Source: an uncultured Bacteroidales bacterium (lineage in GTDB: Bacteria; Bacteroidota; Bacteroidia; Bacteroidales; Paludibacteraceae). From it: DNA of 34,467 nt. The notes beneath the pieces are model-generated. The model worked only from the letters and a program-made list of their open reading frames with translations. It did no database searches and had not been told where the DNA came from. The stretch lies in NCBI GenBank assembly GCA_902792535.1, contig CADAZU010000015.1, forward strand, positions 1-34,467, in the 5' to 3' direction. Below, piece by piece: positions 20,856 to 34,467 of the stretch. The translations under genes and the position numbers were made by a program. Numbering within the stretch: position 1 is the first letter of the stretch; every line of letters begins with the position of its first letter.

Positions 20856-20873
20856 TAATTATCAGATAAAAGA

Positions 20874-20945
20874 TTATCCTCCGAAGTTATCGAAGCGGAT
20901 GTCTGCGTCATCGACGCCCAATGAGTGGAGTAGGTCAAGGACGGT
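20874..20945 (-). pseudogene. Displaced nqrF 3' tail (copy A)
   Basis: On the - strand this reads TVLDLLHSLGVDDADIRFDNFGG and a TAA stop, about 90% identical in DNA to the end of the intact nqrF at 33760. Nearly all differences are synonymous. The copy stops exactly before the codons for MAK, at the shared ACGGT, where it is joined to an inverted tail. It looks like the former 3' end of the host nqrF. Confidence 0.85.
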
Positions 20946-21066
20946 ATTGGATCTCCTGCACTCCCTCGGAGTGGACGATGCCGATATTCGTTTTATAATT
21001 TTGATAAAAAACGTGAGGTTTACCGAACTCCTTATTTAAGGCGGTTAACCGCCAAAGTTTCGGGCC
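20941..21066 (+). repeat. Left arm of island inverted repeat
   Basis: Bases 20941-20994 are the exact reverse complement of 33417-33470 (54 bases). After a 55-base replaced stretch, CGCCAAAGTTTCGGGCC (21050-21066) is the exact reverse complement of 33382-33398. The sense is that of an nqrF tail reading rightward (VLDLLHSLGVDDADIRF), with its stop lost. Confidence 0.9.
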
Positions 21067-21110: not shown

Positions 21111-21306
21111 AGTAAGATAAGAACACCTAATTGAAAGAAAGAATCGAAAAGAAAAATTTGTCTCTCAACTTTAGGCAACTCGCATGTGTGCGCACAATAA
21201 AAATTAAGGTGTCGAAGTATGAAAATTAGCAGAAAAAGAGGGAAAATGTAATAATCGTTCGCCAGATAAGAAGAAAAATGTATTTTTTTGATATTTTTCT
21301 TCGCTC

Positions 21307-21342
21307 ACTCCCATGTTTTGGGAGTTTGATGTAGTAATTTTG
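21307..21342 (+). promoter_or_regulatory. Operator plus -7 box, left copy
   Basis: The palindrome ACTCCCATGTTTTGGGAGT (21307-21325, 7-base arms, 5-base centre) precedes TAATTTTG (21335-21342). The same palindrome with the same 28-base offset to TAATTTTG occurs at 29717-29752. The usual -33 TTTG is not at its normal place; the palindrome occupies that area, which suggests regulator-dependent initiation or direct repression. Confidence 0.7.
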
Positions 21343-21787: not shown

Positions 21788-21832
21788 ATATGCAATTAAA
21801 TTTGCATATGTCAGAAAAAAGTTGTAACTTTG
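21788..21832 (+). promoter_or_regulatory. Promoter with operator dyad for the restriction-helicase operon
   Basis: TTTG (21801-21804) and TAACTTTG (21825-21832) are separated by 20 bases. The dyad ATATGCAA-N6-TTGCATAT (21788-21809) covers the -33 box, as expected for a repressor or controller site. The start near 21839 leaves a 70-base leader before the methyltransferase ATG. Confidence 0.75.
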
Positions 21833-21908: not shown

Positions 21909-22922
21909 ATGTATGTAGACTACATCAACAGTAATCTCAAACCTAACATCACAGAAGCTGCCGTAGTCCTTGATTTATTTGCAGGTTGCGGGGGATTGTC
22001 TTTAGGTTTCGAAGCTGCAGGATTCAAAACTATCGGTTATGAGATGGTAGAATCAGCTGTGGAAACATATAATAAGAATCTGAAAGGGCATTGTGAACAA
22101 ACAATGCTTTCAGTCGGTTATGATTACCCACATGCCGACATTGTTATTGGCGGTCCTCCCTGCCAACCTTTCAGCGTCCGTGGGAAGCAAATGGGAATGA
22201 AAGATGCACGAGACGGTTTTCCGATTTTCATAGATGCCATCGCTCGCTTACAACCCAAAGTATTTTTGTGTGAAAATGTGCGCAATTTAATGTACTCTCA
22301 CAAATGGTATCTGGATCTCATTGTGGACGAGCTACGTAAATTAGGCTATATAGTGGAATTTAAATGTGTAAATGCCGTCAACTATGGGGTGCCACAAAAC
22401 AGAGAGCGCATCATCATAGTAGGGCATCGTTCAAAATTTACTTTCCCAAAAATGTCACAAAAAAAGGTAACTGTTGGTGATGCCATCGGCGACACAATGA
22501 ACCAAGTGATAGAAGGCTGTCATTTCCTTACACCGCAACAAGATGCATACATTGCTGAATATGAGCGCAAGTCTGATTGTATCAATCCTCGTGACTTGTA
22601 TGCAGACCGTCCGGCGCGTACAATAACATGTCGTAACCTTGCCGGGGCAACAAGCGACATGCAACGTGTTAAACTTCCAGATGGCAGGCGCCGCCGAATC
22701 GTCCAACGAGAAGCGGCACGGCTGCAAAGTTTTCCTGACTGGTTCGAGTTTTGCGGAAACGAAACTCAACAATTTACTCAAATTGGCAATGCCGTACCAC
22801 CATTGTTAGCTTATCAATTGGCATTGGCTGTAAAAGAGACTTTCCACAAAGAGGAACGAAGTCTGGACGAGTTGCACCAAATCAACCAAATATTTCAACC
22901 TTTATTTGCTGAATTCGCATAA
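21909..22922 (+). CDS. DNA (cytosine-5-)-methyltransferase
   Basis: 337 residues with the ordered C5 motifs: I, VLDLFAGCGGLSLGFEAAGF (20-39); IV, GGPPCQPFSVRG with catalytic C85; VI, CENVRNL (121-127); VIII, NYGVPQNRERIII; X, QIGNAVPPLLAYQL near the C-terminus. The target-recognition region lies at about 180-275. It adds a methyl group to C5 of cytosine in a specific duplex site and protects host DNA. The next gene, 11 bases on, is a BsuBI/PstI-type endonuclease, so CTGCAG or a related site is the likely target; that is inference. It is the first gene of the five-gene operon and sits behind an operator-bearing promoter. Confidence 0.9.
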   Translation: MYVDYINSNLKPNITEAAVVLDLFAGCGGLSLGFEAAGFKTIGYEMVESAVETYNKNLKGHCEQTMLSVGYDYPHADIVIGGPPCQPFSVRGKQMGMKDARDGFPIFIDAIARLQPKVFLCENVRNLMYSHKWYLDLIVDELRKLGYIVEFKCVNAVNYGVPQNRERIIIVGHRSKFTFPKMSQKKVTVGDAIGDTMNQVIEGCHFLTPQQDAYIAEYERKSDCINPRDLYADRPARTITCRNLAGATSDMQRVKLPDGRRRRIVQREAARLQSFPDWFEFCGNETQQFTQIGNAVPPLLAYQLALAVKETFHKEERSLDELHQINQIFQPLFAEFA

Positions 22923-22933
22923 AAGAAATATCT

Positions 22934-23908
22934 ATGAATAAACCAAAGCGTATAGCAACACTTATCAACAATATGTTGAAGGTCTTGGATGTTATCGGGA
23001 TTCCAATGGATACAATCGGTGAGCGCACAAAAATCCGTATAGCCGAAGCGGTATTGGCGGTAGCGGACATCAAGAAAGCATTTTCCGAAGCAAAATCGGT
23101 GGCGGACAATCATTTCCTGACCACGCGCCAAATCATTGACTTTGAGAATAAGTATCTGGCAGAAAAGGCATCACCAGGTTCTTATGATGATATACGTCGC
23201 CATCATTTGATTCTATTAATAAAAGCGGGGTACATAATGAATTCATCAGCAGTAGAAACACAATCTACAAACAATCCGACAAGGGGCTATGCTCTTACAG
23301 TTGAATTCGCTGAATTACTACATTCTTTTGGAACTACGGAATGGGAAAATAGTCTCGCTCTATTTAAGCAGAAGAATGAGGAACTAAAAGAAATCCTACA
23401 GCGTAAACGTGAGTTGGAGAAGATACCTGTCACACTTCCCGATGGAGTGGAAATCCGTCTTTCGGCAGGTGAGCATAACCAGTTACAAAAGGACATTGTT
23501 GAGAAATTCCTACCTCGTTTTGGATTTGGTGCTGAAGTGTTATATATCGGAGATACGACTGATAAATTCCTTGTGCGAAATGACGATAAACTAAATGCAC
23601 TTCATTTCTTCACATTAGAGCATGAAGAATTGCCGGATGTAGTTGCGTATAGTGAGAGTAAGAATCTTCTATTTATGATTGAAGCAGTGCATAGTTATGG
23701 ACAGATGAGTGAGATTCGTGTGGATAAATTGAAAGAGAAACTGCACGACTGCACAGCAAATCTGATCTTTGTTTCTGCTTTTGAGAACAAAGCCATTTTT
23801 CGTAAATTCTCTACTGACATTGCATGGGAGTCGGAAGTATGGTTGGCAGATTCTCCAGATCACATGATACATTTTAACGGATACAAGTTTCTGGAAATAC
23901 ATCAATAA
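22934..23908 (+). CDS. BsuBI/PstI-type restriction endonuclease
   Basis: 324 residues. An N-terminal helical/winged-helix region (1-160) is followed by the BsuBI/PstI nuclease domain: GEHNQLQKDIVEKFLPRF (179-196), EVLYIGDTTDKF, LPDVVAYSESKNLLFMIEAVHSYG (233-256, with D235 and E250 as likely metal ligands) and a lysine-rich following helix. Described enzymes of this family cut CTGCAG. They usually pair with an N6-adenine methyltransferase, but here the partner is a C5 enzyme; CTGCAG systems with C5 methylation are known. Length fits the family. Immediately after its stop, a diverged second copy of its last codons is present (23913-23966). Confidence 0.85.
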   Translation: MNKPKRIATLINNMLKVLDVIGIPMDTIGERTKIRIAEAVLAVADIKKAFSEAKSVADNHFLTTRQIIDFENKYLAEKASPGSYDDIRRHHLILLIKAGYIMNSSAVETQSTNNPTRGYALTVEFAELLHSFGTTEWENSLALFKQKNEELKEILQRKRELEKIPVTLPDGVEIRLSAGEHNQLQKDIVEKFLPRFGFGAEVLYIGDTTDKFLVRNDDKLNALHFFTLEHEELPDVVAYSESKNLLFMIEAVHSYGQMSEIRVDKLKEKLHDCTANLIFVSAFENKAIFRKFSTDIAWESEVWLADSPDHMIHFNGYKFLEIHQ

Positions 23909-23912
23909 TCCT

Positions 23913-23966
23913 TTGCCCGATCACATGATTCACCTGAATGGTGATAAATTCCTTGGTCCGAGATAA
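23913..23966 (+). pseudogene. Relic of a second endonuclease 3' end
   Basis: The bases after the endonuclease stop translate as LPDHMIHLNGDKFLGPR and a stop, matching SPDHMIHFNGYKFLEIHQ at the end of the intact gene but only about 65% alike in DNA. It is therefore a different allele's tail, left in place directly upstream of the helicase gene. Confidence 0.8.
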
Positions 23967-23982
23967 AATTCAAAATGCCTAT

Positions 23983-26900
23983 ATGGCGCAATTTAACGTT
24001 GGAGATAGTGTAATATATGTACGATCGCAACAAGAAGCAGTCGTAACACAAGTGTTGCCCATACAAGGTGGTATGCAAATATACCAGATTTTTGTTAATG
24101 GGCAATACACTATGTGTCCCGAGCAACAATTAATGCCGCAAGTGAACATCTCCGATGAATTCGAGCGTTGTAAATTAGGTTTATTTGGAACCAATGAACA
24201 GTTTGTATTAACCAACACCACTTTCAAGATTAGCAATCAGAGCACCAACTCTATTGCTACGATGATGGCATCCAAAACAGACTTCAAGCCTTACCAATAT
24301 ATTCCCCTGCTCAAATTTCTGTATTCCGGCAACAAAAGATTGCTAGTAGCAGATGAAGTTGGTCTTGGTAAGACCATCGAAGCCGGGCATATTATGCTTG
24401 AGCTCAAGGCACGTCATGAATTGCGGAATGCCTTGGTCATCTGTCCCAACTCGCTACTCGAAAAATGGCACGATGAGTTATTAGAACGCTTTGATTTGAA
24501 TTTCAAGGTATATGGCGAAGGGATGAGTCGTGAGTTTCTGCAAGATATTAAGCAGCAGCGCGATTCATTATATGCCATCGTCAATTACGAAAAATTGCGT
24601 GGCGTGAACTTGGTGAAGTATATGGAGCAGAACCATATCGTATTTGATTTCCTTCTCTGTGATGAAGCACACAAGTTGAGAAATCACACTACAGCCACGC
24701 ACCAAGGAGTCAAACACCTGATTCGGAATGCTCGTGCCGGTGTCTTTCTGACTGCCACTCCTATCATGAACGATGAGGACAACTTATTCTGGTTGCTTAA
24801 CCTTTTGGACGAACAGAGTTATGACAATCCATCCTTATTCCGAAATGCTTTAAAAGAGAATGTGCCGTTTGTGAAAGCACTGTCTCTTTTAGGAGACATG
24901 GATCAGCCCTTGAAAGAAATTATTTCCGAACTTGATCAAAGCGAAATCGTTTCTACATATTCTGTCGGTGATAACGTATATGAAAAGACTATCACCATCC
25001 ACGATAAGTTCGCTTCTGTTCCCATCTATCAACGTGTTGTAGAGGAAAGTCAAAAAGAAGATAGTTTGGAAAAACGCATTCAGATGCAATCCGACATATC
25101 ATCACTTAACGTGATAAACGGCATCTTTACCCGAAATCGCAAAAGGGATGTGATGTACGAATCACCTCAAGCGCAACGACAAGCCACGCCTTGTTACATA
25201 CCATTTACGGACGAGGAGAGAAAAGAATACGAAGAAGAGTTAGCCGATTACAGAAACACCTACACCTATATTGGAACAGATGGCGAAATGCATTGGATAG
25301 AAGGGCGTCTCTTGGGCTATATGACGTTGGAAAGGCAGTTGGCCAGTTCACTATACGCTTATACCCGTGGTCCGGAGAACGCGCTCTTATACCCAGATGC
25401 CAAGTTTGATGCTCTGATGAGAGTATATAACGAAGTAGTATGTACTCACAAAAAGAAACTGATTGTATTTGCCGTATTCAATCATACCATTGATTATTTA
25501 ACGGCGCGATTTGCGCAACAAGGCGTTTCAGCGATCGTTATCAACGGTGCATTGAACCGTTTGGAGCGCAAAGAGAATCTCGAACGTTTCCGTGACGACC
25601 TAGAAAATAAAGTATTGATAGCCAGTGAGGTTGGTAGCGAGGGTTTGGATATGCAATTTTGCGATGCGCTTGTCAATTATGATTTACCATGGAACCCAAT
25701 GGTAGTAGAACAGCGTATCGGACGTATTGACCGTATTGGTCAAAAATCCCCAGTTATCAACATCTACAATATGGTGATGCAAGATACCATCCACGAAAAA
25801 ATCTATTATCGTCTTCTGGATCGTATCAATATATTCACCTCATGCATCGGCGACTTGGAAGCCATCTTAGACTCCGATACTGCAGAAGGAAAGACACTTC
25901 AAGATGCTCTTGATGACTTGGAGCGTCAATTTTACCGTTTAGACCTTACTGATGAAGAAAAAGAAAGACAGGCACAAGAGCTACAACTTGCACTAATTCG
26001 AGAGAAGAACCATTTGGCAGAGATTGAGGAAAAATTCCAAGACACTTTGACAAATGACATATACTTCAGGAACGAAATTAGTTCGATGGTGCGTAACTAT
26101 CGGTATATTACGAGCAAGGAACTTATCAACTATATCCAAAGTATTGTAATTAACCATCTGACAACTTGTACATTTCAACAGAAGTCAGAATACATTTACA
26201 CCCTGTCAGTACCCAAGAGCCAAACCTCTGCTTTAACAAGTTTCTTAACGGCTAATCGCCCTGCCAACATAGACCATCCAAAGGAATATGATGCCTTCAT
26301 CAATTCAATTCGTGGAGAGATAGATATTGACATGACGTTTGACAGGGAGTATGCAAAAGCACATACTGCGGCACTCTATATTGATCCATTCCATCCTTTA
26401 GTACTGGCATGTATGAATTATTTCTCTGCCAATTCACTCAAAGACAACACGTTCCAATTCACGTTGTCTAAGGATGATTTCAAAGACTTGAAACAGATAG
26501 AAGCGGGTGAATATTTTTTAGGCATATATCGTATAGGTGTAGAGAAGCACATCTATGGTGCAATACAACGCGTGGAGAACGAGATACCTTTGCTATATAG
26601 CGTGGATAGAGATTGTCTTATTTCCGGAAAAGAAGAAGCATTACGATTCATGGGACAAGCGCAGCAGAACGCACAACTTTGCCCAGCCGGTGTGGTGTGT
26701 GCATCGGGTGTCGTAGATAAACTGCGTCAAGTATTCACATTAGAAATAGACAGCATATCCGACAGAACTATAAAGGACGCATCCCTGCATCTTGAATCAT
26801 CCAAGCAAATGGAGATTAACCGTATAGAGGAATACTATTCAAACCGTATCAGGCAACAGGAACAAGTTGTTGAAGAACTCAGATGGTTGAAATACTATGA

Positions 26901-27069
26901 TGATGAAGATTCAAAGAGACGATATAGAACATTGCCGATGCAGGAAAAGAATTTAGCAGATTTGAAAGTAGAACGAGAAGAAGCCATTCAAAAAATTAGC
27001 GATGGGCATGTTCAACTTTCCATGCCCGCAACTCTGATTTCGCTTAACCACGTCATTGTAAAACCATGA
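23983..27069 (+). CDS. SNF2-family DNA helicase/translocase (RapA/DrmD-like)
   Basis: 1028 residues from ATG 23983; the ATG at 23938 lies inside the endonuclease relic and is unlikely. Residues 1-55 form a small beta-rich, Tudor/KOW-like module (VGDSVIYV). A Q-like motif (101-113) leads into the ATPase core: LLVADEVGLGKTIEAG (K130), CDEAHKLRN (226-234), LTATPIMN (256-263), and in the second RecA fold SEVGSEGLDMQF and EQRIGRIDRIGQ. The C-terminus is coiled coil (about 915-1000). It should translocate on duplex DNA and remodel bound proteins. DISARM DrmD and RapA have this plan. Its stop overlaps the Hsp70-like ATG (ATGA), indicating equimolar expression and probably a complex. Confidence 0.85.
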   Translation: MAQFNVGDSVIYVRSQQEAVVTQVLPIQGGMQIYQIFVNGQYTMCPEQQLMPQVNISDEFERCKLGLFGTNEQFVLTNTTFKISNQSTNSIATMMASKTDFKPYQYIPLLKFLYSGNKRLLVADEVGLGKTIEAGHIMLELKARHELRNALVICPNSLLEKWHDELLERFDLNFKVYGEGMSREFLQDIKQQRDSLYAIVNYEKLRGVNLVKYMEQNHIVFDFLLCDEAHKLRNHTTATHQGVKHLIRNARAGVFLTATPIMNDEDNLFWLLNLLDEQSYDNPSLFRNALKENVPFVKALSLLGDMDQPLKEIISELDQSEIVSTYSVGDNVYEKTITIHDKFASVPIYQRVVEESQKEDSLEKRIQMQSDISSLNVINGIFTRNRKRDVMYESPQAQRQATPCYIPFTDEERKEYEEELADYRNTYTYIGTDGEMHWIEGRLLGYMTLERQLASSLYAYTRGPENALLYPDAKFDALMRVYNEVVCTHKKKLIVFAVFNHTIDYLTARFAQQGVSAIVINGALNRLERKENLERFRDDLENKVLIASEVGSEGLDMQFCDALVNYDLPWNPMVVEQRIGRIDRIGQKSPVINIYNMVMQDTIHEKIYYRLLDRINIFTSCIGDLEAILDSDTAEGKTLQDALDDLERQFYRLDLTDEEKERQAQELQLALIREKNHLAEIEEKFQDTLTNDIYFRNEISSMVRNYRYITSKELINYIQSIVINHLTTCTFQQKSEYIYTLSVPKSQTSALTSFLTANRPANIDHPKEYDAFINSIRGEIDIDMTFDREYAKAHTAALYIDPFHPLVLACMNYFSANSLKDNTFQFTLSKDDFKDLKQIEAGEYFLGIYRIGVEKHIYGAIQRVENEIPLLYSVDRDCLISGKEEALRFMGQAQQNAQLCPAGVVCASGVVDKLRQVFTLEIDSISDRTIKDASLHLESSKQMEINRIEEYYSNRIRQQEQVVEELRWLKYYDDEDSKRRYRTLPMQEKNLADLKVEREEAIQKISDGHVQLSMPATLISLNHVIVKP

Positions 27070-28745
27070 GCAAATATATCGTAGGATTAGATTTTGGAAC
27101 TCATCAATCGAAAATCTGCATAGAGAATTCATCAAATCGAATGCAATTGACTTATGAGTTTCTTGAGTTTCCAGGAGCCCCCAGAGGAAAAGAGAAAACA
27201 CTTTTCCCTTCTGTTGTACAAATCAACAGAGATGGTACGGTAAGTTATGGCTTCGTTAATCCTGCAAATGCTATGGTTATAGCTAAAGAAGGAAGCGTAC
27301 CTCCTCCAGAAAAAGAAGTTGTGCCCGAACCAGACTATCAATCTCTCCCCTCTGAACCACGTTATGACTCTCTTCCGCCCCAACCAGAGTCAAAGTACAA
27401 GGGGTATTTCGCCATATTAGCAAAATTACTTCCCGAGTCAGAAGAAATAAAGAAATGGAGACAGACTTGTAGTTCTATTGAACGAGCAAATGAGAACAAA
27501 CGGATGGCATGGATGAATAGAACACATGATGTGAAGGTTCAGAACGAGAGAGTCAAAGAAGAATGGCAGCGAAAAGTCAAAGAGGTAGAGAGAAAACATA
27601 TCGCGGCCATGAAAGCATGGCGCGATGATTTGAACCGAAGTACGCAAATGCGTTTCCGTTACTTCAAGCAAGCGACATTCTTCTATCGTGATATATGGAC
27701 TAATGATTTCATCAGTCCGGAGGAGGCTTCTATTTGGTATCTCGCTTACATTCGTTTTTTACTGAATCAAAAACTAGGCAAAGATTATATTGTACGAATG
27801 GGTGTTCCATGTAGTTATGAAGACATAGCAGAGTTTAGACAACGTGCTTACAACTTATGGATGAGTGCCGGAAAATTGGTGGATCATTATCTAGACCTCA
27901 ATGCTTTTCTCAAAGCGGATTACAAAGACTTACGACTATATGGAAAATATGAGCAGTATGCAATAGATCCCACGCAACCGTTCGATGTTAGAACAGAGGC
28001 ACAAGCCAGTTTGTTTGCGGCTGTTTCAAATAGACGTATACGTACCAAAATCAATATTCTTTTTGATATAGGTGGCGGAACCACAGATATAGCTGTATTC
28101 CATATCACTCCTGCACCCGAAGAGCAATTGAAGATATTAGAAACTATATCTGTCCCTATGGGACTAAACTATATTTTCGAAGCATACCAGAAGGAGCACC
28201 CAAATCAGTCATTAGAACAAATACAGTCACGTTTTACTACGCACATCACATCTCATCCTAATGGAGGAGATTTCAAGGAGCAAGTTCAAGGCTATCTAAA
28301 ACAGATAGGGAGTGCTTCGGATAATCTTGCACTTGCAATTATGAAGTCATTACAGACAGATCCATGGATGAGGCAACGCAGTCGCATTATTGAGGCGTTG
28401 AAAGATAATCCAAGCGTTTTCTGTGGTGGAGGCTCTTTGTATGATTGCTTACAAAATGTCATCACTAAGTTGCCAGGAATTACTGGAATAAAAGGCGACT
28501 GCGCTCCTATATTTACCGATAAAAGAGTTGTTAACCAAGGATTGCAGGGAATAAGAAATGTACAGAACAAAGACATATCTGCTGATTCTTACCAAATCTT
28601 GGCTGCTGCCTATGGATTATCATTATCCGATAACTGGTATGAGGTTCCATCTGAAAATATCTTGAATACATTCAAGGCTTCACCGGATGCCCCACCTATT
28701 CCCAAGACGAATATTCAAGAACGTAATGACGAAGCAATAAAATAA
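27066..28745 (+). CDS. Hsp70-like actin-fold ATPase lacking a substrate-binding domain
   Basis: 559 residues. Phosphate-1 motif YIVGLDFGTHQSKICIE (4-20), phosphate-2 motif ILFDIGGGTTDIAVF (331-345) and adenosine motif VFCGGGSLYDCL (451-462) identify an Hsp70/actin ATPase. Between them are a proline-rich repeat (about 80-110, EP-x-Y-x-SLP units) and a long charged coiled coil (about 125-200) not present in DnaK. After residue ~540 only a short tail follows, so the peptide-binding and lid domains are absent. It is therefore not a general chaperone. Overlap with the helicase gene suggests it binds or gates that motor. The WYL gene follows 5 bases on. Confidence 0.85.
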   Translation: MSKYIVGLDFGTHQSKICIENSSNRMQLTYEFLEFPGAPRGKEKTLFPSVVQINRDGTVSYGFVNPANAMVIAKEGSVPPPEKEVVPEPDYQSLPSEPRYDSLPPQPESKYKGYFAILAKLLPESEEIKKWRQTCSSIERANENKRMAWMNRTHDVKVQNERVKEEWQRKVKEVERKHIAAMKAWRDDLNRSTQMRFRYFKQATFFYRDIWTNDFISPEEASIWYLAYIRFLLNQKLGKDYIVRMGVPCSYEDIAEFRQRAYNLWMSAGKLVDHYLDLNAFLKADYKDLRLYGKYEQYAIDPTQPFDVRTEAQASLFAAVSNRRIRTKINILFDIGGGTTDIAVFHITPAPEEQLKILETISVPMGLNYIFEAYQKEHPNQSLEQIQSRFTTHITSHPNGGDFKEQVQGYLKQIGSASDNLALAIMKSLQTDPWMRQRSRIIEALKDNPSVFCGGGSLYDCLQNVITKLPGITGIKGDCAPIFTDKRVVNQGLQGIRNVQNKDISADSYQILAAAYGLSLSDNWYEVPSENILNTFKASPDAPPIPKTNIQERNDEAIK

Positions 28746-28750
28746 AGATA

Positions 28751-29659
28751 ATGTCCGTAGTACAATATAAGAAATATTTCTGGCTGGTAGATACCATCCG
28801 CAGTGCGGGGAAGATCACCAAAGAGCAGATAGACAGGAAGTGGTCGAACTCGCGGTATAATGATAGCCACGAGACCACTATCCCGGATACGTCGTTTTAC
28901 AGAATACGCCGCGACATTGAGGAACTCTTCGATATAGAGATCCTCTGCGACCGTGCCACAGGGCAATACTACATCGACGATACAGATCTTAACTCACGCA
29001 CCAAACAATGGCTTCTCTCGCAGTTTGCCGTCAGTCAGTCGCTCGATGCCAGCCGTGAGTTGCGCGACAGCATCATCTACGAGTCCATTCCCGAAGGAAC
29101 GCAGTATCTCACGACGATCGTCACCGCCATCAGCGAGAGTAGGAACCTCCTTTGTACGCACCAGCGGTTTGACACGGACACACCGCATGTCTTTTACCTC
29201 TCGCCGCTGTGCCTCAAAGTGTTCAAGCAGCGGTGGTACGTGTTGGGCATCTGTACAGAACTCGACGGGACGATTGACCCAAAGAGTCCGAAGATGTACT
29301 CGCTTGACCGCATTGTCAGTCTTGAATTGTTGGAAAAGACATTCAAACGTCCGAAGAACTTCAACGCACGCGAGTATTTCGCTCCGTTCTATGGTGTGTT
29401 CTGCGGTAATGATCTGAAGCCCGAACTTGTCCGTGTTCGAATGGCGTCTGAGAAAGATGCCAAATATCTGCGGTCGCTTCCGCTGCATCACTCGCAGAGC
29501 GAACCCGAACCCTGTATTTTCGAATGGCATGTAGCGCCGACCTTCGATTTCATCCAGCAACTCCGCACCTACGGCTCAAATATCGAAGTCCTTGCGCCGC
29601 AGTCGCTTCGGGAAAAGTTTGCCGATGAGGCGAGGGAACTTTCCAAGTTGTATTTGTGA
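28751..29659 (+). CDS. WYL-domain transcriptional regulator
   Basis: 302 residues: an N-terminal winged helix (about 5-75, ending YRIRRDIEELFDIEI), a central WYL domain (about 120-215, with HVFYLSPLCLKVFKQRWYVLGI and YSLDRIVSLELL) and a C-terminal WCX extension. WYL proteins sense nucleic acids or nucleotides and repress many defence loci (BrxR, CapW types). Here it is the last gene of the operon, 5 bases after the Hsp70-like gene, rather than first. Codon use is clearly more GC-rich than in that gene, so it may have joined separately. Candidate sites are the palindromes at 21307 and 29717 or the dyad at 21788. Confidence 0.88.
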   Translation: MSVVQYKKYFWLVDTIRSAGKITKEQIDRKWSNSRYNDSHETTIPDTSFYRIRRDIEELFDIEILCDRATGQYYIDDTDLNSRTKQWLLSQFAVSQSLDASRELRDSIIYESIPEGTQYLTTIVTAISESRNLLCTHQRFDTDTPHVFYLSPLCLKVFKQRWYVLGICTELDGTIDPKSPKMYSLDRIVSLELLEKTFKRPKNFNAREYFAPFYGVFCGNDLKPELVRVRMASEKDAKYLRSLPLHHSQSEPEPCIFEWHVAPTFDFIQQLRTYGSNIEVLAPQSLREKFADEARELSKLYL

Positions 29660-29684: not shown

Positions 29685-29712
29685 AAAAGTGCATTTCGGT
29701 GCACTTTTTTTT
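29685..29712 (+). terminator. Terminator of the defence operon
   Basis: AAAGTGCA pairs with TGCACTTT around a short loop, then T-run (to 29712). It lies 26 bases after the WYL stop and directly before the second operator copy. Confidence 0.85.
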
Positions 29713-29716
29713 GTTC

Positions 29717-29752
29717 ACTCCCATGTTTTGGGAGTTTTTTGTTGTAATTTTG
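29717..29752 (+). promoter_or_regulatory. Operator plus -7 box, right copy
   Basis: The palindrome ACTCCCATGTTTTGGGAGT (29717-29735) and TAATTTTG (29745-29752) have spacing identical to the left copy at 21307-21342; the flanking bases (TC before, TT after) also agree. It drives the small-gene module that begins at 29835. Confidence 0.7.
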
Positions 29753-29834: not shown

Positions 29835-30785
29835 ATGTACGGCGAACACAACCCATATGCTACGCTATCGCGGCGGCAGGTTGCGCTCTTTGAGCGTAAC
29901 CCTGTTTGTGCGTTGTGTTATCGTATCTGTATGGATATGTATGAGGAATATGGCGGGATAAACTTTGATCTCCTTGACAGTATCCGCACGGCAGATGATT
30001 TATGCGGGCAGATAATTCAAAACGCATGGTCGTTGGATGGTGTCGAGCATTACTTCGATGTGGTCAATAACCGTCTCGGGCACTCAAAACCTGCTATAGC
30101 TTGCACCTTTGCCACCGTTTGCGTCACACTCACATGTATGGATAACTTGCCGGAGCCGGTTTATCAATTGGCGCATGACATGCGCGGGCTGATAATAGGA
30201 GATGGGAACGATCTTTATGATTCATTGAGGCAATCCGCTTATCGGCAAGACATAGTGATTGACGCTACGGCATATGGAGAGCCACCGCCAGAGCCGGCAT
30301 TAGTTCAAGAGAACGTAGAACTCCGTATGCGTGTGGAACAATTAGAACAAGAAGTAAAATACTATAAAACACAAATGGAAATGAAAAAGCAAGAACCCCA
30401 ACAAAAACCGAACATCACTATTGAGAATCACGGTAAGTTAACCTTTATCGCGGAGCAAAACAATGATGTCCACGACAACCACGGCTGCAATATCTACCTC
30501 ACGCCGCAAGAGGAGGAAATGAGTGAAGGAGTGAAAGACTTAACGAGTGAAAGCGTGAGCGAGGCAGGGCTGGCGGCAGAGCAGATTTTAGGCATTCCGC
30601 ATGAAGGCAAATATACCGAAGTGCGCCAATACATCGAGGAGCGTTGCCGGTTTGACGAGGAGTTCAAGCAATTCGTGGCGAATAGCACACGCGTTGCACT
30701 CTGCCAACGTCTCAGCAAGGAGTTCGGATGGACGGTGGATCATTATGCCCTCGGCAGAAACATCAACCGAAAACGCAAGCGATAA
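29835..30785 (+). CDS. Unrecognised protein with coiled coil, island module
   Basis: 316 residues, no family recognised. Residues 1-130 are cysteine-containing and helical (NPVCALCYRICMDMYEEYGG). A coiled coil runs at about 155-185 (ENVELRMRVEQLEQEV). A linker with NITIENHGKLTFIAEQ looks like a short beta strand repeat. The C-terminal 70 residues (YTEVRQYIEERCRFDEEF to NINRKRKR) look like a basic winged-helix or DNA-binding end. It is cytosolic. It stands first behind the right operator promoter. The layout suggests a DNA-binding accessory protein, but I give no function. Confidence 0.6.
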   Translation: MYGEHNPYATLSRRQVALFERNPVCALCYRICMDMYEEYGGINFDLLDSIRTADDLCGQIIQNAWSLDGVEHYFDVVNNRLGHSKPAIACTFATVCVTLTCMDNLPEPVYQLAHDMRGLIIGDGNDLYDSLRQSAYRQDIVIDATAYGEPPPEPALVQENVELRMRVEQLEQEVKYYKTQMEMKKQEPQQKPNITIENHGKLTFIAEQNNDVHDNHGCNIYLTPQEEEMSEGVKDLTSESVSEAGLAAEQILGIPHEGKYTEVRQYIEERCRFDEEFKQFVANSTRVALCQRLSKEFGWTVDHYALGRNINRKRKR

Positions 30786-30834
30786 TTTGGAGACGAAGAG
30801 GTCACAAGTGGTCGCGTTTGTGGTCATATCGACC

Positions 30835-30865
30835 TTTAAAGGGGTCACTTAAAGCAGTACTTTTG
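30835..30865 (+). promoter_or_regulatory. Weak promoter candidate before the HNH gene
   Basis: TACTTTTG at 30858-30865 fits the -7 box; a weak TTTA at 30835 sits 19 bases upstream. The start would be 60 bases before the ATG at 30931. The gap 30786-30930 also has several GGTC-containing short repeats. Confidence 0.4.
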
Positions 30866-30930
30866 CACCGCCTTTCGGAATAAGCCAACCCTCGCATTGA
30901 GGAGCACTTTATTCTCCGACTGGCGGTGTT

Positions 30931-31500
30931 ATGGTATCTAAATATCGTTCAAACATCCATCCCAAGCGCGATGTGCTACCGGATGGAACAGAAGTTCGCC
31001 TTGTACCTATTGAGCGAACGAACAATCATCCTTTGTATGCGTCTAAGGACGGACGCGTGTTCTCGCTGCATGGGAAGTCCTATTATCCCTTGCGGCCAAC
31101 AGTAACCAATTATCCATGCAACAGAGCCAATGGACGGCGCAAACAGAAGTATCTGAAGATGACTAAGACGTATGGTTATATCCTCGTGCATACGGCTATA
31201 GCTTTGGCGTGGATAGGCGACAAGCCAGCCGTTTTAGAAGTAATCGTTCGAGCGAAAGCGAGACAAGAACCTGAGCAAGCAAGCCATGCGGAGTGCTATG
31301 TCGTGGATCACCTAAACGGCATCACCACCGACAATCGTGCGGAGAACCTGCAATGGGTGACGCGTCAAGAGAATGAGAAACGCGCAAAACTGCTGCGAGT
31401 ATTGCGGTCTATCGGACGCGACCCACGGAAGATGAGCCGTGACGAACTCATCCAAATTTTCAACAAGTATGAATTTGTAACCCCCAAAAACATCGATTAA
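30931..31500 (+). CDS. HNH endonuclease-like protein
   Basis: 189 residues. The C-terminal half has CYVVDHLNGITTDNRAENLQWV, the HNH pattern with catalytic-type histidine and two asparagines, as in phage and homing HNH proteins with NUMOD-like N-terminal parts (HPLYASKDGRVFSLHGK resembles NUMOD4). The family usually nicks or cuts DNA. A mobile-element or anti-competitor role fits the island, but the protein may bind RNA or DNA without cutting. It is followed by the next gene after 2 bases, in one operon. Confidence 0.72.
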   Translation: MVSKYRSNIHPKRDVLPDGTEVRLVPIERTNNHPLYASKDGRVFSLHGKSYYPLRPTVTNYPCNRANGRRKQKYLKMTKTYGYILVHTAIALAWIGDKPAVLEVIVRAKARQEPEQASHAECYVVDHLNGITTDNRAENLQWVTRQENEKRAKLLRVLRSIGRDPRKMSRDELIQIFNKYEFVTPKNID

Positions 31501-31502
31501 TC

Positions 31503-31949
31503 ATGAAAGCAATAGAAATGAATCAAGCCCTTAAGGAGGCAATCAAGACAACAGAAGTATTAGGTGCCAGCGCATTGGAAGAGACACGTGCTTTGCGGCA
31601 GTTGATAGCGTCAGCTAACGCTCGTATCGAAGAGCTGGAAACAGCGGCGGTAGAGGACGCAAAAGTGTGCGCTATCGAGCAGAACGGCGAGGACAAAGGG
31701 AAATTCCTCTTTGACGGTCACCACTTTGAATTGCGCAAGGCAGAGACAAACGATTTCGTAGGTAAGCCGCAGAAATACACGATGGCTGAAGGCGTAGCAT
31801 ACCGGCAGAAGATTGCAGAGCAGCAAGTGCTGAAAGCGAAGTCATCTGCCATCACCAAGGCGCTGAAAGCGATTAAGGATGCGTTCCCGACGACGCACCC
31901 GAACATCGAGCCGGATAGCGTGGAATACACGGTGGTTTGTGTGGACTAA
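31503..31949 (+). CDS. Small unrecognised protein, HNH-linked
   Basis: 148 residues, mostly helical and charged, with an N-terminal coiled coil (about 5-48, EETRALRQLIASANARIEEL) and a lysine/alanine-rich helix (about 100-128). No membrane segment or signal is seen. The start is 2 bases after the HNH stop, so it is translationally coupled to it. I do not recognise a family; it may be a partner or inhibitor of the HNH protein, which is inference from spacing only. Confidence 0.55.
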   Translation: MKAIEMNQALKEAIKTTEVLGASALEETRALRQLIASANARIEELETAAVEDAKVCAIEQNGEDKGKFLFDGHHFELRKAETNDFVGKPQKYTMAEGVAYRQKIAEQQVLKAKSSAITKALKAIKDAFPTTHPNIEPDSVEYTVVCVD

Positions 31950-31994
31950 AAGAAAGCGAATAAGAAAAAGTAAGCAAAAAGAATTACAAAGAAA

Positions 31995-32040
31995 AATCTT
32001 CCCCCTCCTCTACACACGTTGTAGGGGACTGGGGGAGATT
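31995..32040. repeat. GC-rich interrupted palindrome
   Basis: AATCTtCCCCC pairs with GGGGGAGATT, with an inner CTACA/TGTAG stem. It fills half of the 103-base gap between two small genes. It resembles the CCTCCCC/GGGGAGG palindrome inside ccsBA and may be a REP-like element of this genome. Confidence 0.55.
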
Positions 32041-32052
32041 ATTAAGAAAATT

Positions 32053-32403
32053 ATGAAACGAGATTCTTTTGAAGTTATTTGGGAGTTTCTAGCACCTGAC
32101 GAGCAGCAGTTTGGCAACCGGAAAGAGGCTTGCCGGCGGTTGTGGAGTGGTTTGTCAGTTCCCAAGCAGCGGCAGATCTATGCGACCTTTGTTTGGCAGA
32201 GGGAGCAGAAGATAGCCATAGACGAAAATCCTTATTTTGCCATCAGTCATTGCCAGCCCAAGCCGTTCAACTACAACGGTGCGAATGTATCCCTGCCGAA
32301 CGATACGAAGCTGTTTATAGCCAAGTACGGAGAACATTACGGGGTGTATTCAAAGTTGGATACGGAGGCTTTTGAGATGGTGGATAAAAGACCTTTTAAT
32401 TAA
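32053..32403 (+). CDS. Small unrecognised protein (116 residues)
   Basis: From ATG 32053 the product begins MKRDSFEVIWEFLAPDEQQF and is helical in its first half (KEACRRLWSGLSVPKQRQIY), then forms short strands (NGANVSLPNDTKLFI). The first half has the look of a small DNA-binding or adaptor helix bundle. No family is recognised. The upstream in-frame extension to 31879 runs through the palindrome and the end of the preceding gene, so it is not taken as coding. The next gene starts 9 bases on. Confidence 0.5.
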   Translation: MKRDSFEVIWEFLAPDEQQFGNRKEACRRLWSGLSVPKQRQIYATFVWQREQKIAIDENPYFAISHCQPKPFNYNGANVSLPNDTKLFIAKYGEHYGVYSKLDTEAFEMVDKRPFN

Positions 32404-32412
32404 ATTTCAGCT

Positions 32413-32700
32413 ATGGATTATCCTTTATATGACGTACCCTACTTGGTACGTGACCCGAATGAGTACCGGATGTCGGAGAAACGGCATCAGTTAGAAGTGC
32501 GGAACCAGGCGGTAGTGGATGAGTACTTTGTGGCGCGAGACAAGGGTGCTTCGGCGCATGAGGCGCGAGAGGTCGTGGCGCAGAAGCACAAGATAACACC
32601 CGAAAGAGTTTATTGCATCGTCAAATGGTTCTTCAATCAGGCGAGAAAACGGCGAAAATATGATTTTTTGCAAAAATTTGCGTCTTTGGAGGAACACTAA
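32413..32700 (+). CDS. Small unrecognised basic protein (95 residues)
   Basis: A 95-residue, charged, helical protein with a predicted HTH-like stretch (EAREVVAQKHKITPERVYCIVKWF, residues ~52-75) and a basic tail NQARKRRKYDF. It could be a small DNA-binding protein of the island. It lies in the same run as the gene before (9-base gap). Recognition is by shape only. Confidence 0.5.
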   Translation: MDYPLYDVPYLVRDPNEYRMSEKRHQLEVRNQAVVDEYFVARDKGASAHEAREVVAQKHKITPERVYCIVKWFFNQARKRRKYDFLQKFASLEEH

Positions 32701-32714
32701 AGTTACTCTGATAT

Positions 32715-32755
32715 TAATTTTGCAGCGGATTTTGAGAAAAGATCCGCTGTTTTTG
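32715..32755 (+). terminator. -7-like box merged with a terminator hairpin
   Basis: CAGCGGAT (32723-32730) pairs with ATCCGCTG (32742-32749), followed by T5; it terminates the small-gene run. Directly before it is TAATTTTG (32715-32722), the same -7 box and following GCAGCG as at 21335, so a promoter may fire into the hairpin. Confidence 0.6.
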
Positions 32756-32814
32756 ATGTCGCTATCGTCCCGTATGTCTCTCGTAAGCCGCTCGTGTTTT
32801 TGCAAGGCGAAAAA

Positions 32815-32936
32815 CCGGAATAGGATTCCGGGCTAATAGACGAAGAAAAGCCCGCATACAATGCGGGGAAAGAAACATACATTATTAACCAGATCGCCCA
32901 TGTATGGTCGATACGAAAGTAGCGGACATATGGGCG
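32815..32936 (+). ncRNA. Candidate structured RNA: three consecutive hairpins
   Basis: Perfect seven-base stems occur at 32815-32831 (CCGGAAT/ATTCCGG, loop AGG), at 32851-32867 (CCCGCAT/ATGCGGG, loop ACA) and around 32895-32936 (CGCCCAT/ATGGGCG, 28-base interior). The region has no good reading frame, is not followed by T-runs, and ends 25 bases before the next gene. It could be a leader or regulatory RNA of 32962-33270, or a small RNA. No known class was recognised. Confidence 0.4.
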
Positions 32937-32961
32937 GATACAAAAAACCTAAACTTTAACT

Positions 32962-33270
32962 ATGAGTAAAATCAATTTGGAAGCGCCGTTTACGGCTTTT
33001 CGAGGCAAGATCTGCAAGCACTCGAAAATCATCTTTGCCCAACGCGGGCAGACCCAGTACACCTCGCAGATTTGCAACCCGCGAACCAAAGCGTACAGCG
33101 AGGAGGAGATAGCCCGTCAGGGTAAGTTCAAACAGGCGGTGGTCAATGCTAATGCCGCTTTAGCGGACAGCACGCAGAAAGCAACGTACGAGGCAGAGTA
33201 CAAGGCTCAGAGCAAGTACAAGAGCCTGAGGGGGTATGTGATTGCAAAGGAGTATGAGAAACTCGCTTGA
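32962..33270 (+). CDS. Small unrecognised protein at the island's right end
   Basis: 102 residues, basic, starting MSKINLEAPFTAFRGKICKH and ending GYVIAKEYEKLA; the second half is helical (KFKQAVVNANAALADSTQK). No domain is recognised. The C-terminal half resembles the partial product at the window start (1-339), so both may belong to one Bacteroidales small-protein family. It is the last gene before the nqrF tail. A GCGCT/AGCGC hairpin lies just after it at 33286-33298. Confidence 0.55.
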   Translation: MSKINLEAPFTAFRGKICKHSKIIFAQRGQTQYTSQICNPRTKAYSEEEIARQGKFKQAVVNANAALADSTQKATYEAEYKAQSKYKSLRGYVIAKEYEKLA

Positions 33271-33381: not shown

Positions 33382-33470
33382 GGCCCGAAACTTTGGCGTT
33401 AGCCACCAAAATTATCAAAACGAATATCGGCATCGTCCACTCCGAGGGAGTGCAGGAGATCCAATACCGT
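33382..33470 (-). repeat. Right arm of island inverted repeat
   Basis: 33417-33470 (54 bases) and 33382-33398 (17 bases) are exact reverse complements of 20941-20994 and 21050-21066. The arm coincides with most of the nqrF tail copy B and its 3' flank. The two arms enclose about 12.3 kb. Confidence 0.9.
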
Positions 33471-33494
33471 TTTTGCCATCATAGGAGGACCGCG
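33399..33494 (-). pseudogene. Foreign nqrF 3' tail (copy B)
   Basis: On the - strand it encodes GPPMMAKTVLDLLHSLGVDD and on to ADIRFDNFGG and a TAA, the same protein as the intact gene end but with many synonymous changes (about 70% identity in DNA) left of base 33472. From 33472 to 33493 it is identical to the intact gene. It looks like an nqrF end carried in by a mobile element from another species. Confidence 0.88.
33472..33493. repeat. 22-base direct repeat (att-like), copy 1
   Basis: Begins TTTGCCATCATAGG and is identical to 33833-33854 within nqrF. Homology between the two nqrF ends switches from diverged to perfect at this point, and ends at 33493. The repeat copies are 361 bases apart. 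Confidence 0.8.
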
Positions 33495-33740: not shown

Positions 33741-33759
33741 CTTATTTAGATCCTTCGGA

Positions 33760-34467
33760 TCATCCTCCGAAGTTATCGAAGCGGATGTCGGCATCATCGA
33801 CGCCCAGCGAGTGGAGCAGGTCGAGGACGGTCTTTGCCATCATAGGAGGACCGCAGAGGTAGTACTCGACATCCTCGGGAGCGTCATGCTGCTTGAGGTA
33901 AGTGTCGCCCATGACCGGAGCGATGAAGCCCGGGGTGTACTTGATACCCAGTTGGTCTGCCTTCGGGTCCGGACGGTCCAGCGCCAAGTGGAAATGGAAG
34001 TTCGGGAACTCCTTCTCCAGCGCGAGGAAATCGTCGAGGAAGAAGACTTCGTCGATAGCACGTGCGCCGTAGAAATAGTGCATCTCACGGTCACGGCAGT
34101 TGCGGGTCTTCAACATGTGCATGATCTGCGCACGCAGCGGCGCCATACCGGCTCCACCACCAACCCAGATCATCTCCTTCTTACTGTCATAAACAGGACG
34201 GAACTCACCGTAAGGACCGCTCATGCGCACCTTGTCGCCCGGTTTGAGCGAGAAGATATACGTGGAAGCGATACCGCAAGGAACGTCCATGAACTCCGGT
34301 CCGTTGGGGCACTGATCCTTCGGTTTGAAGGGCGGGGTGGCGATACGGACGGTGAGGGTGATGATGTCTCCCTCGTCGGGGTAGTTAGCCATCGAATAAG
34401 CACGAACGGTAGCCTGGGTGTTCTTCTGTTTGAGTTTGAAGAGCCCGAACTTCTGCCAAGCCGGCAG
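33760..34467 (-). CDS. nqrF: Na+-translocating NADH:quinone reductase subunit F, 3' part
   Basis: 235 C-terminal residues are visible; the start lies beyond the window. Motifs in order: FAD-binding RAYSMANYP, a second FAD contact region with GIASTYIFSL and SGPYGEFR, the NAD(H)-binding WVGGGAGMAPLRAQI, FYGARAIDEVFFLDDF, LCGPPMMAKTV, and the terminus DIRFDNFGG. NqrF takes electrons from NADH through FAD to a 2Fe-2S centre (which is in the missing part) and feeds the sodium pump in the inner membrane. The gene is intact to its stop; the last 24 codons exist in two more partial copies in the window, marking it as an integration target. Confidence 0.93.
   Translation of the reverse strand: MPAWQKFGLFKLKQKNTQATVRAYSMANYPDEGDIITLTVRIATPPFKPKDQCPNGPEFMDVPCGIASTYIFSLKPGDKVRMSGPYGEFRPVYDSKKEMIWVGGGAGMAPLRAQIMHMLKTRNCRDREMHYFYGARAIDEVFFLDDFLALEKEFPNFHFHLALDRPDPKADQLGIKYTPGFIAPVMGDTYLKQHDAPEDVEYYLCGPPMMAKTVLDLLHSLGVDDADIRFDNFGG
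33833..33854. repeat. 22-base direct repeat (att-like), copy 2
   Basis: Lies inside nqrF at the GPPMMAK codons and matches 33472-33493 exactly. The adjacent base order GGTCTTTGC resembles the TTTGC-containing cores described for CTnDOT-type integrases. Confidence 0.8.

Follow-up and report, generated by a model that had tools for sequence, protein, structure and literature searches.

What does a SNF2-family motor protein do in a bacterial operon where its immediate partner is an Hsp70-like ATPase, and how much of that operon belongs to a single system? The question is raised by five co-directional genes in a 34,467-nucleotide stretch (the window; contig CADAZU010000015.1 of assembly GCA_902792535.1, numbered C15 here) from the 2.37-Mb genome, with a completeness of 82.65%, of an uncultured Bacteroidales bacterium. 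A first-pass annotation, made from the letters of the sequence, had read these genes (for a C5 methyltransferase, a PstI-type nuclease, a SNF2 ATPase, an Hsp70-like ATPase and a WYL regulator) as one new defence operon. Their positions, common strand and spacings (11, 74, -4 and 5 bases, with the SNF2 start taken as 23983) were reproduced, and Pfam searches bore out the domain content and identity of all five products. The idea of a single unit holds for the SNF2 and Hsp70-like genes, whose pairing is conserved, and falls for the five genes as one system, as only those two recur throughout 21 loci compared.

DISARM, BREX, Zorya and related systems all make use of SNF2 ATPases, and little is known of what regulates these motors. 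A minimal pair, free of other subunits, would offer a direct route to how the activity of a bacterial SNF2 motor comes to be switched on against foreign DNA alone.

The SNF2 and Hsp70-like genes as a conserved unit

A search with the Hsp70-like protein across 84,980 species genomes, which was no census, yielded at least 18 confirmed loci among the matches listed (588 stretches), and in 15 of these 18 a SNF2 gene lies directly upstream; the remaining three (L061, L063 and L064) are weak matches (E values of 5e-6 to 7e-5) that have no SNF2 gene, and were excluded from the pair set. The single locus from a viral collection likewise has SNF2 upstream of the Hsp70-like gene. The converse search, with the SNF2 protein at E<=1e-60, returned three of 395 genomes from the phylum and three of 200 from the family (the window being counted in both), and the Hsp70-like gene is next in all five distinct loci, window included, two of which (G297 and G688) were shared with the first search as L047 and L054. 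Records that came up under two labels (L047 and G297, L081 and L054) were counted once, and L074, a near copy of L042, was left uncounted. Adjacency elsewhere, which had been set in advance as a test of the proposed unit, is thus not rare.

Across the 21 loci, the SNF2 and Hsp70-like gene clusters are the only ones common to all, and no other cluster has more than three genes, those of three drawing them from two or three loci; the SNF2 gene always comes first, and the gap between the two genes ranges from -14 to +15 bases, with an identical 4-base overlap in six. The identity matrices of the two proteins correlate at r=0.95 (0 of 2000 permutations; 0.94 without three plasmid loci). The pair is a conserved unit.

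Two individual loci have forms of their own. The order is reversed in L044 (6440-11907), the only one of 24 loci in which the Hsp70-like gene precedes SNF2, and in L080 (9852-11468; genome G716) the Hsp70-like gene occupies two frames of 382 and 142 residues, its neighbours being a gene for type IIG restriction and a SNF2 gene that is intact.

The pair occurs in several bacterial groups, with a patchy distribution, and is present on plasmid records. At class level, a search recovered the family from the window's own genome only (1 of 295), and the module was probably acquired by that genome, because the family search matched none of the 20 genomes of the same genus that it listed. Single-protein scans of genome and viral collections gave no matches. 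The SNF2 query at a limit of 1e-10 matched 463 plasmid records (E values down to 9e-88), of which 40 were listed and 16 opened: six carry an Hsp70-like partner (one a near copy), four a GHKL protein, and six neither. At a limit of 1e-50 the same search came back empty twice, in conflict with the value of 9e-88, and empty results at strict limits were not used as evidence. The Hsp70-like query found no match at E 0.01 among plasmids or phages; at E 10, the best 15 of 997 plasmid rows and seven phage rows are partial matches to other proteins.

This distribution bears on a housekeeping explanation, in which the SNF2 protein would recycle stalled RNA polymerase with the Hsp70-like protein assisting, and the defence neighbours would reflect chance insertion into an island. 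The full-length RapA architecture of the SNF2 protein agrees with such a role, as do metabolic or envelope genes around several loci. Set against it are the patchy counts given above (three of 395 and three of 200 genomes, none of 20 in the genus) and the plasmid records, where a housekeeping role predicts the opposite; the explanation fits the comparison poorly, and is highly improbable.

Chaperone-type partners, genomic surroundings and a possible switch

The ATPase motifs of the SNF2 protein are well kept: all 24 proteins have an intact motif I, and motif II is DEAH in 23, the exception being DEVQ in L037. Among the structures closest to the window protein are the motors of INO80, SRCAP and SWR1.

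Its 559-residue partner has an Hsp70-fold nucleotide-binding domain (NBD) and, as the first-pass annotation had stated, lacks the peptide-binding (substrate-binding) domain (SBD) that would follow it: in the structure model the NBD and an insert take up all 559 residues, with residues 534-559 below a predicted local distance difference test (pLDDT) score of 50. The phosphate-1 motif (DFGT) is kept in all 23 Hsp70-like proteins scanned, as is GGG. The lysine of a YFK motif bears a resemblance to Lys70 of DnaK, and no more than that, as profile comparison with the genome's own DnaK is weak (hhalign probability 38, 82 columns). The coiled-coil insert, from which a regulatory role had been argued in part, is missing from 11 of 17 aligned proteins and present in six, so it cannot be the general basis of regulation, and it was rejected as a defining feature; that the Hsp70-like protein is a dedicated regulator of the motor is nonetheless a reasonable inference. 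The name PDC-M61B, the sole PADLOC match of the window protein (23.1 bits), was likewise rejected: none of seven homologues matches PADLOC at 1e-5, and the model has matches in 202 of 395 genomes, mostly to short stretches, which are taken for other ASKHA proteins. One homologue (L049, 3404-6040) is an 878-residue protein with a long C-terminal extension, by eye an AAA/ABC-type ATPase, and appears to be a fusion.

A tree of 33 SNF2 proteins, made by a quick method and with L043 and L081 outside it, contains a branch with full support in the Shimodaira-Hasegawa-like approximate likelihood ratio test (SH-aLRT) with 27 on one side; on the other are an annotated DrmD, a SNF2 encoded next to BREX-5 genes and SNF2s linked to DUF1156. 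All 27 members of this clade have a chaperone-type ATPase as neighbour, which is Hsp70-like in 23 and of the GHKL (Hsp90/Tiamat-like) type in four; the Hsp70-like partner had been known beforehand for 22 of the 27, and that of L044 was found afterwards, upstream of its SNF2 gene. The plasmid locus L043 also has an Hsp70-like gene, and no such gene was seen within the stretch scanned around the six SNF2s outside the clade. The GHKL (Hsp90/sacsin-type) proteins lie directly downstream of SNF2 in L038, L039, L040 and L072; that of L038 carries PF25794 and matches the PADLOC model of TmtA (Tiamat) at 171 bits, the other three are homologous to it, that of L039 having an HSP90-family annotation. 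One or other of two unrelated chaperone-type ATPases fills the place next to SNF2 in this clade.

Profile scores raise a different explanation, that a DrmD or BrxHII helicase of a DISARM or BREX variant lost its partners, gained an Hsp70-like one and became accessory to an adjacent methylation-based system. The best PADLOC model for the window SNF2 is DrmD PDLC02623 (373 bits; the model has no stated cut-off), and this explanation is retained because the same model matches clade members L042 and L045 at 720 and 790 bits; it also accords with methylase genes near the pair in the window, L049, L051, L059, L062 and L080, and with the pair's position directly upstream of brxABC in L037. Against these points stand a score of 303.1 bits with the NCBIfam DrmD model NF038317, under its cut-off of 610, the place of the clade in the quick tree apart from annotated DrmD and the BREX-5-linked SNF2, and the lack of any methylase among the neighbours searched in L050, L052, L057 and L060. 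The MZB domain (DUF1998, PF09369), which we take to be the mark of DrmB, is moreover absent from the window's genome (82.65% complete) and from 16 of 20 other pair carriers searched; in the other four it occurs, somewhere in the genome, in frames of 679-2052 residues. On balance, we consider this variant unlikely.

Membership of DISARM itself was rejected for the window, on the NCBIfam score and the missing MZB domain, and that of BREX because PglZ, BrxC and PglX are all missing from the 16 window proteins scanned with Pfam; the one PglZ domain of the genome lies in a 538-residue frame on contig C47. As the first-pass annotation had it for DISARM, the signature parts of neither system were found beside the pair among the window proteins scanned (for DISARM, the five genes against PADLOC and ten flanking open reading frames against Pfam).

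Neighbouring genes were searched in part (50 proteins), and recognised defence genes lie close to the pair in at least 11 of the 24 loci. They comprise type II restriction-modification in the window, type I HsdM in L059, a type IIG restriction gene in L080, a type III-like Res and methylase with an HNH protein in L049, a ResIII-Eco57I protein in L051, BREX brxABC (each of brxA, brxB and brxC from Pfam) in L037, McrBC-like genes in L062, a mad8-like protein with PP2C in L056, Hachiman with an endonuclease in L045, HNH and DpdF-like proteins in L033 and a NucC-like nuclease in L058. The pair seems able to stand alone, since no defence gene was found among the neighbours searched in L050, L052, L057 and L060 (of which L050, L052 and L060 lie close to the end of a contig). 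These surroundings fit a stand-alone module that gathers in defence islands.

Two of these neighbourhoods merit more detail. After brxABC, L037 has frames that are by eye pglX-, pglZ- and brxL-like; directly upstream of the pair in L056 (709-6822) are a 1807-residue protein, one end of which is mad8-like, and a PP2C phosphatase, possibly a MADS-type hybrid.

The best explanation, in our view about as likely as not, is that the pair forms a mobile defence module of two genes, with a SNF2 DNA translocase gated by a nucleotide switch of the Hsp70 type, a reading adopted mainly because the pairing is strict and the ATPase motifs are kept in both proteins; its role in defence is inferred from surroundings, mobility and relatives. 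Under such a scheme, the RapA-type SNF2 ATPase would move on double-stranded DNA and form a complex with the Hsp70-like protein, whose ATP or ADP state would gate either the loading of the motor onto invading DNA or its release. The motor would then run along the foreign DNA, stripping or blocking phage transcription or replication complexes, or might instead pass DNA to a neighbouring nuclease; in the window's genome, the module would have been joined to an independent type II pair and a WYL regulator under one promoter within a genomic island. A wider proposal, which we hold with less confidence than doubt, is that the clade defines an undescribed class of two-gene defence modules, with a SNF2 translocase under a chaperone-type switch for which Hsp70 and Hsp90/GHKL folds are interchanged, in parallel with the actin-fold partners of SNF2 remodellers. 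If true, gating of this kind would be a new use of the Hsp70 fold, the exchange with an Hsp90/Tiamat-type partner would tie two chaperone folds to one immune function, and stray 'DrmD' annotation calls made without a surrounding DISARM would be accounted for.

A number of observations weigh against a switch-gated defence module. Neither protein has a recognisable nuclease domain or other domain for killing, which leaves the scheme short of its effector step. Adjacency could be explained by co-regulation rather than by a complex, the correlation of r=0.95 owes something to shared ancestry, and 11 of 24 is a raw count without a matched control for the defence-gene frequency of these genomes. The phosphate-2 motif fits the search pattern in 20 of 23 Hsp70-like proteins and is unmatched in L043, L044 and L045, because of which ATP hydrolysis may have been lost in that branch. 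The plasmid-branch proteins (measured for L041, L042 and L045) are about 18-20% identical to that of the window; L041-L045 are tied to it through intermediates (single linkage by blastp at 1e-6, and profile) and not directly, and they are not among the best 15 of 997 plasmid records for the window query even at E 10. Finally, the quick tree carries long-branch warnings (for L082, and for L038-L040/L072 with L039), and gives no branching order among the GHKL group and the two groups with an Hsp70-like partner.

The restriction cassette, flanking repeats and control signals

The other three genes of the operon (Table 1) are not part of the conserved unit. A homologue of the C5 methylase occurs in one other locus of the 21 (L062), and WYL homologues lie near the pair in L065 (one of 21) and in L080, the gene being otherwise not conserved beside it. 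The nuclease is 39% identical to its ten best plasmid matches, nine of which are annotated as BsuBI/PstI family, and it has an adjacent methylase, as befits a type II restriction-modification system of that kind. Methylase and nuclease look like an ordinary type II pair, a separate cassette beside the module. The methylase is of the C5 type, whereas both homologous loci opened (L069 and L070) have an Eco57I-type enzyme.

The gap before SNF2 encodes PLPDHMIHLNGDKFLGPR followed by a stop, which is the usual tail of BsuBI/PstI-type enzymes. This remnant scores 91 against the tail from L070, 86 against that from L069 and 62 against that of the present gene (0 of 2000 shuffles reach each), and so resembles the tails of these two plasmid homologues more than it does that of the intact gene. 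It thus suggests that a nuclease gene of this type once stood before SNF2 and has since been replaced, or that part of one was duplicated.

The remnant is among the points in favour of an ATP-dependent restriction-modification system like CglI or NgoAVII, in which the C5 methylase would protect, the PstI-type enzyme cut, the SNF2 protein translocate and the Hsp70-like protein assist assembly, as it suggests an earlier PstI-type nuclease at that site. The single strand, short gaps, and single promoter and terminator agree with this, and the set of components resembles that of CglI and NgoAVII, given in the available text of PMC4267653 as a C5 methylase, an endonuclease and a superfamily 2 (SF2) ATPase. 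The proposal fits the locus comparison poorly, membership of the CglI type was not borne out, and we judge it very unlikely.

Table 1. Positions of the operon genes and associated features in the window
Feature	Position	Strand	Basis or remark
Promoter TTG-N20-TAACTTTG with overlapping palindrome ATATGCAA-N6-TTGCATAT, candidate operator	21788..21832	+	
C5-cytosine DNA methyltransferase	21909..22922	+	PF00145, 1.8e-63; cassette adjoining the module, outside the conserved unit
BsuBI/PstI-type II restriction endonuclease	22934..23908	+	PF06616, PF17728; cassette adjoining the module
Remnant of BsuBI/PstI-type endonuclease, last 18 codons and stop	23910..23966	+	Translation, alignment with L069/L070 tails; direct repeat D4
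SNF2 ATPase, RapA/DrmD/BrxHII type; core gene 1 of the module	23983..27069	+	Frame open from 23938, start at 23983 likely
Hsp70-NBD-like (ASKHA) ATPase with helical insert, without SBD; core gene 2	27066..28745	+	
Single 66-residue helix of the insert, codons 126-191	27441..27638	+	Secondary structure of model; subclade feature
WYL-WCX transcription regulator, final operon gene	28751..29659	+	PF13280, PF25583
Intrinsic-terminator-like hairpin at operon end	29685..29708	+	

An operator-bearing promoter had been proposed for the operon: a Bacteroidota-type promoter is indeed present (TTG at 21802 and TAACTTTG at 21825), and the palindrome that overlaps it is, taken alone, within chance (143 of 1000 shuffles). 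A terminator-like hairpin does lie at the operon end; the count of such sites in the region is about the shuffle mean. A 48-base element is repeated at both ends of the operon region (21295-21342 and 29705-29752, 88% identical), with the hairpin ACTCCCATGTTTTGGGAGT and the motif TAATTTTG.

The 3' end of an nqrF-like gene (so named by eye from Pfam domains) is present at 20872-20948 and again at 33758-33834 (90% identical), on either side of a stretch of about 12.8 kb that carries the operon. It occurs a third time at 33397-33473, in a copy that has counterparts of 96-98% identity in two further genomes of the genus, and an inverted 59-base match joins 20936-20994 and 33417-33475 (97%). No integrase was recognised among the genes scanned. 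A row of small genes lies 3' of the operon (29835-33270), one of which encodes a phage-type HNH endonuclease (30931-31500), and PHROGs gave no match at E 0.01 for five others scanned. G+C content was rejected as evidence of transfer: that of the operon (0.37-0.42) is below that of 9-21 kb (0.47-0.56), and like that of 1.5-7.5 kb of the window (0.41-0.44).

Comparison with known systems

No named system that contains the SNF2 and Hsp70-like pair, or that matches the operon component for component, emerged from scans with PADLOC, NCBIfam and Pfam, in keeping with the first-pass view. The pair was not found in the literature covered, which excluded subscription papers and most preprints, nor in the available text of PMC12839542, PMC12458937, PMC10853773, PMC11090510, PMC3710099, PMC2292703, PMC7641849, PMC7159879 and PMC4267653.

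Several known systems nevertheless resemble it in part. Among these, restriction operons in which a GHKL ATPase accompanies an SF2 helicase have been on record since 2008 (Iyer 2008, PMC2292703), and such MORC/paraMORC systems, with a GHKL ATPase and an SF2 motor in mobile restriction contexts, are akin to the four loci in which SNF2 has a GHKL neighbour; the window's partner differs in being of the unrelated Hsp70/actin fold, and the term Hsp70 has no occurrence in the main text of that paper. The use of Hsp70-like proteins at defence loci, in some cases lacking a peptide-binding domain, is a feature shared with CoCoNuT/McrB (PMC11090510) and GAP1-N2 conflict systems (PMC7159879), as far as the available portions of those papers extend; there, however, they are coupled to McrB/McrC or to GTPases. 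It is the GAP1-N2 systems that include an Hsp70 without a peptide-binding domain (PMC7159879), whereas the Hsp70 units of CoCoNuT are described with both NBD and SBD, and the figure legends name SWI2/SNF2 ATPases as neighbours, with a SNF2-Hsp70 pair undescribed in the text available (PMC11090510).

DISARM DrmD, BREX BrxHII and RapA share with the window protein a SNF2 core, RapA-type architecture and the best profile matches; the window SNF2 differs from them in its separate clade (quick tree) and its Hsp70- or Hsp90-type neighbour. Tiamat is approached through the TmtA match of the L038 GHKL partner (171 bits), the window's partner being instead Hsp70-like and without a TmtA match in PADLOC. 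As to MADS, a mad8-like gene lies beside the pair in L056, and no mad model matches the window's Hsp70-like protein or is among the best 25 of 52 for its SNF2.

The INO80, SWR1 and SRCAP remodellers bind actin-related proteins, and so likewise combine a SNF2 motor with a nucleotide-binding partner of the actin superfamily; the likeness is one of analogy only, and the window's partner is closest to the NBD of Hsp70. The kinds of protein involved are themselves known, and what is new is their strict combination.

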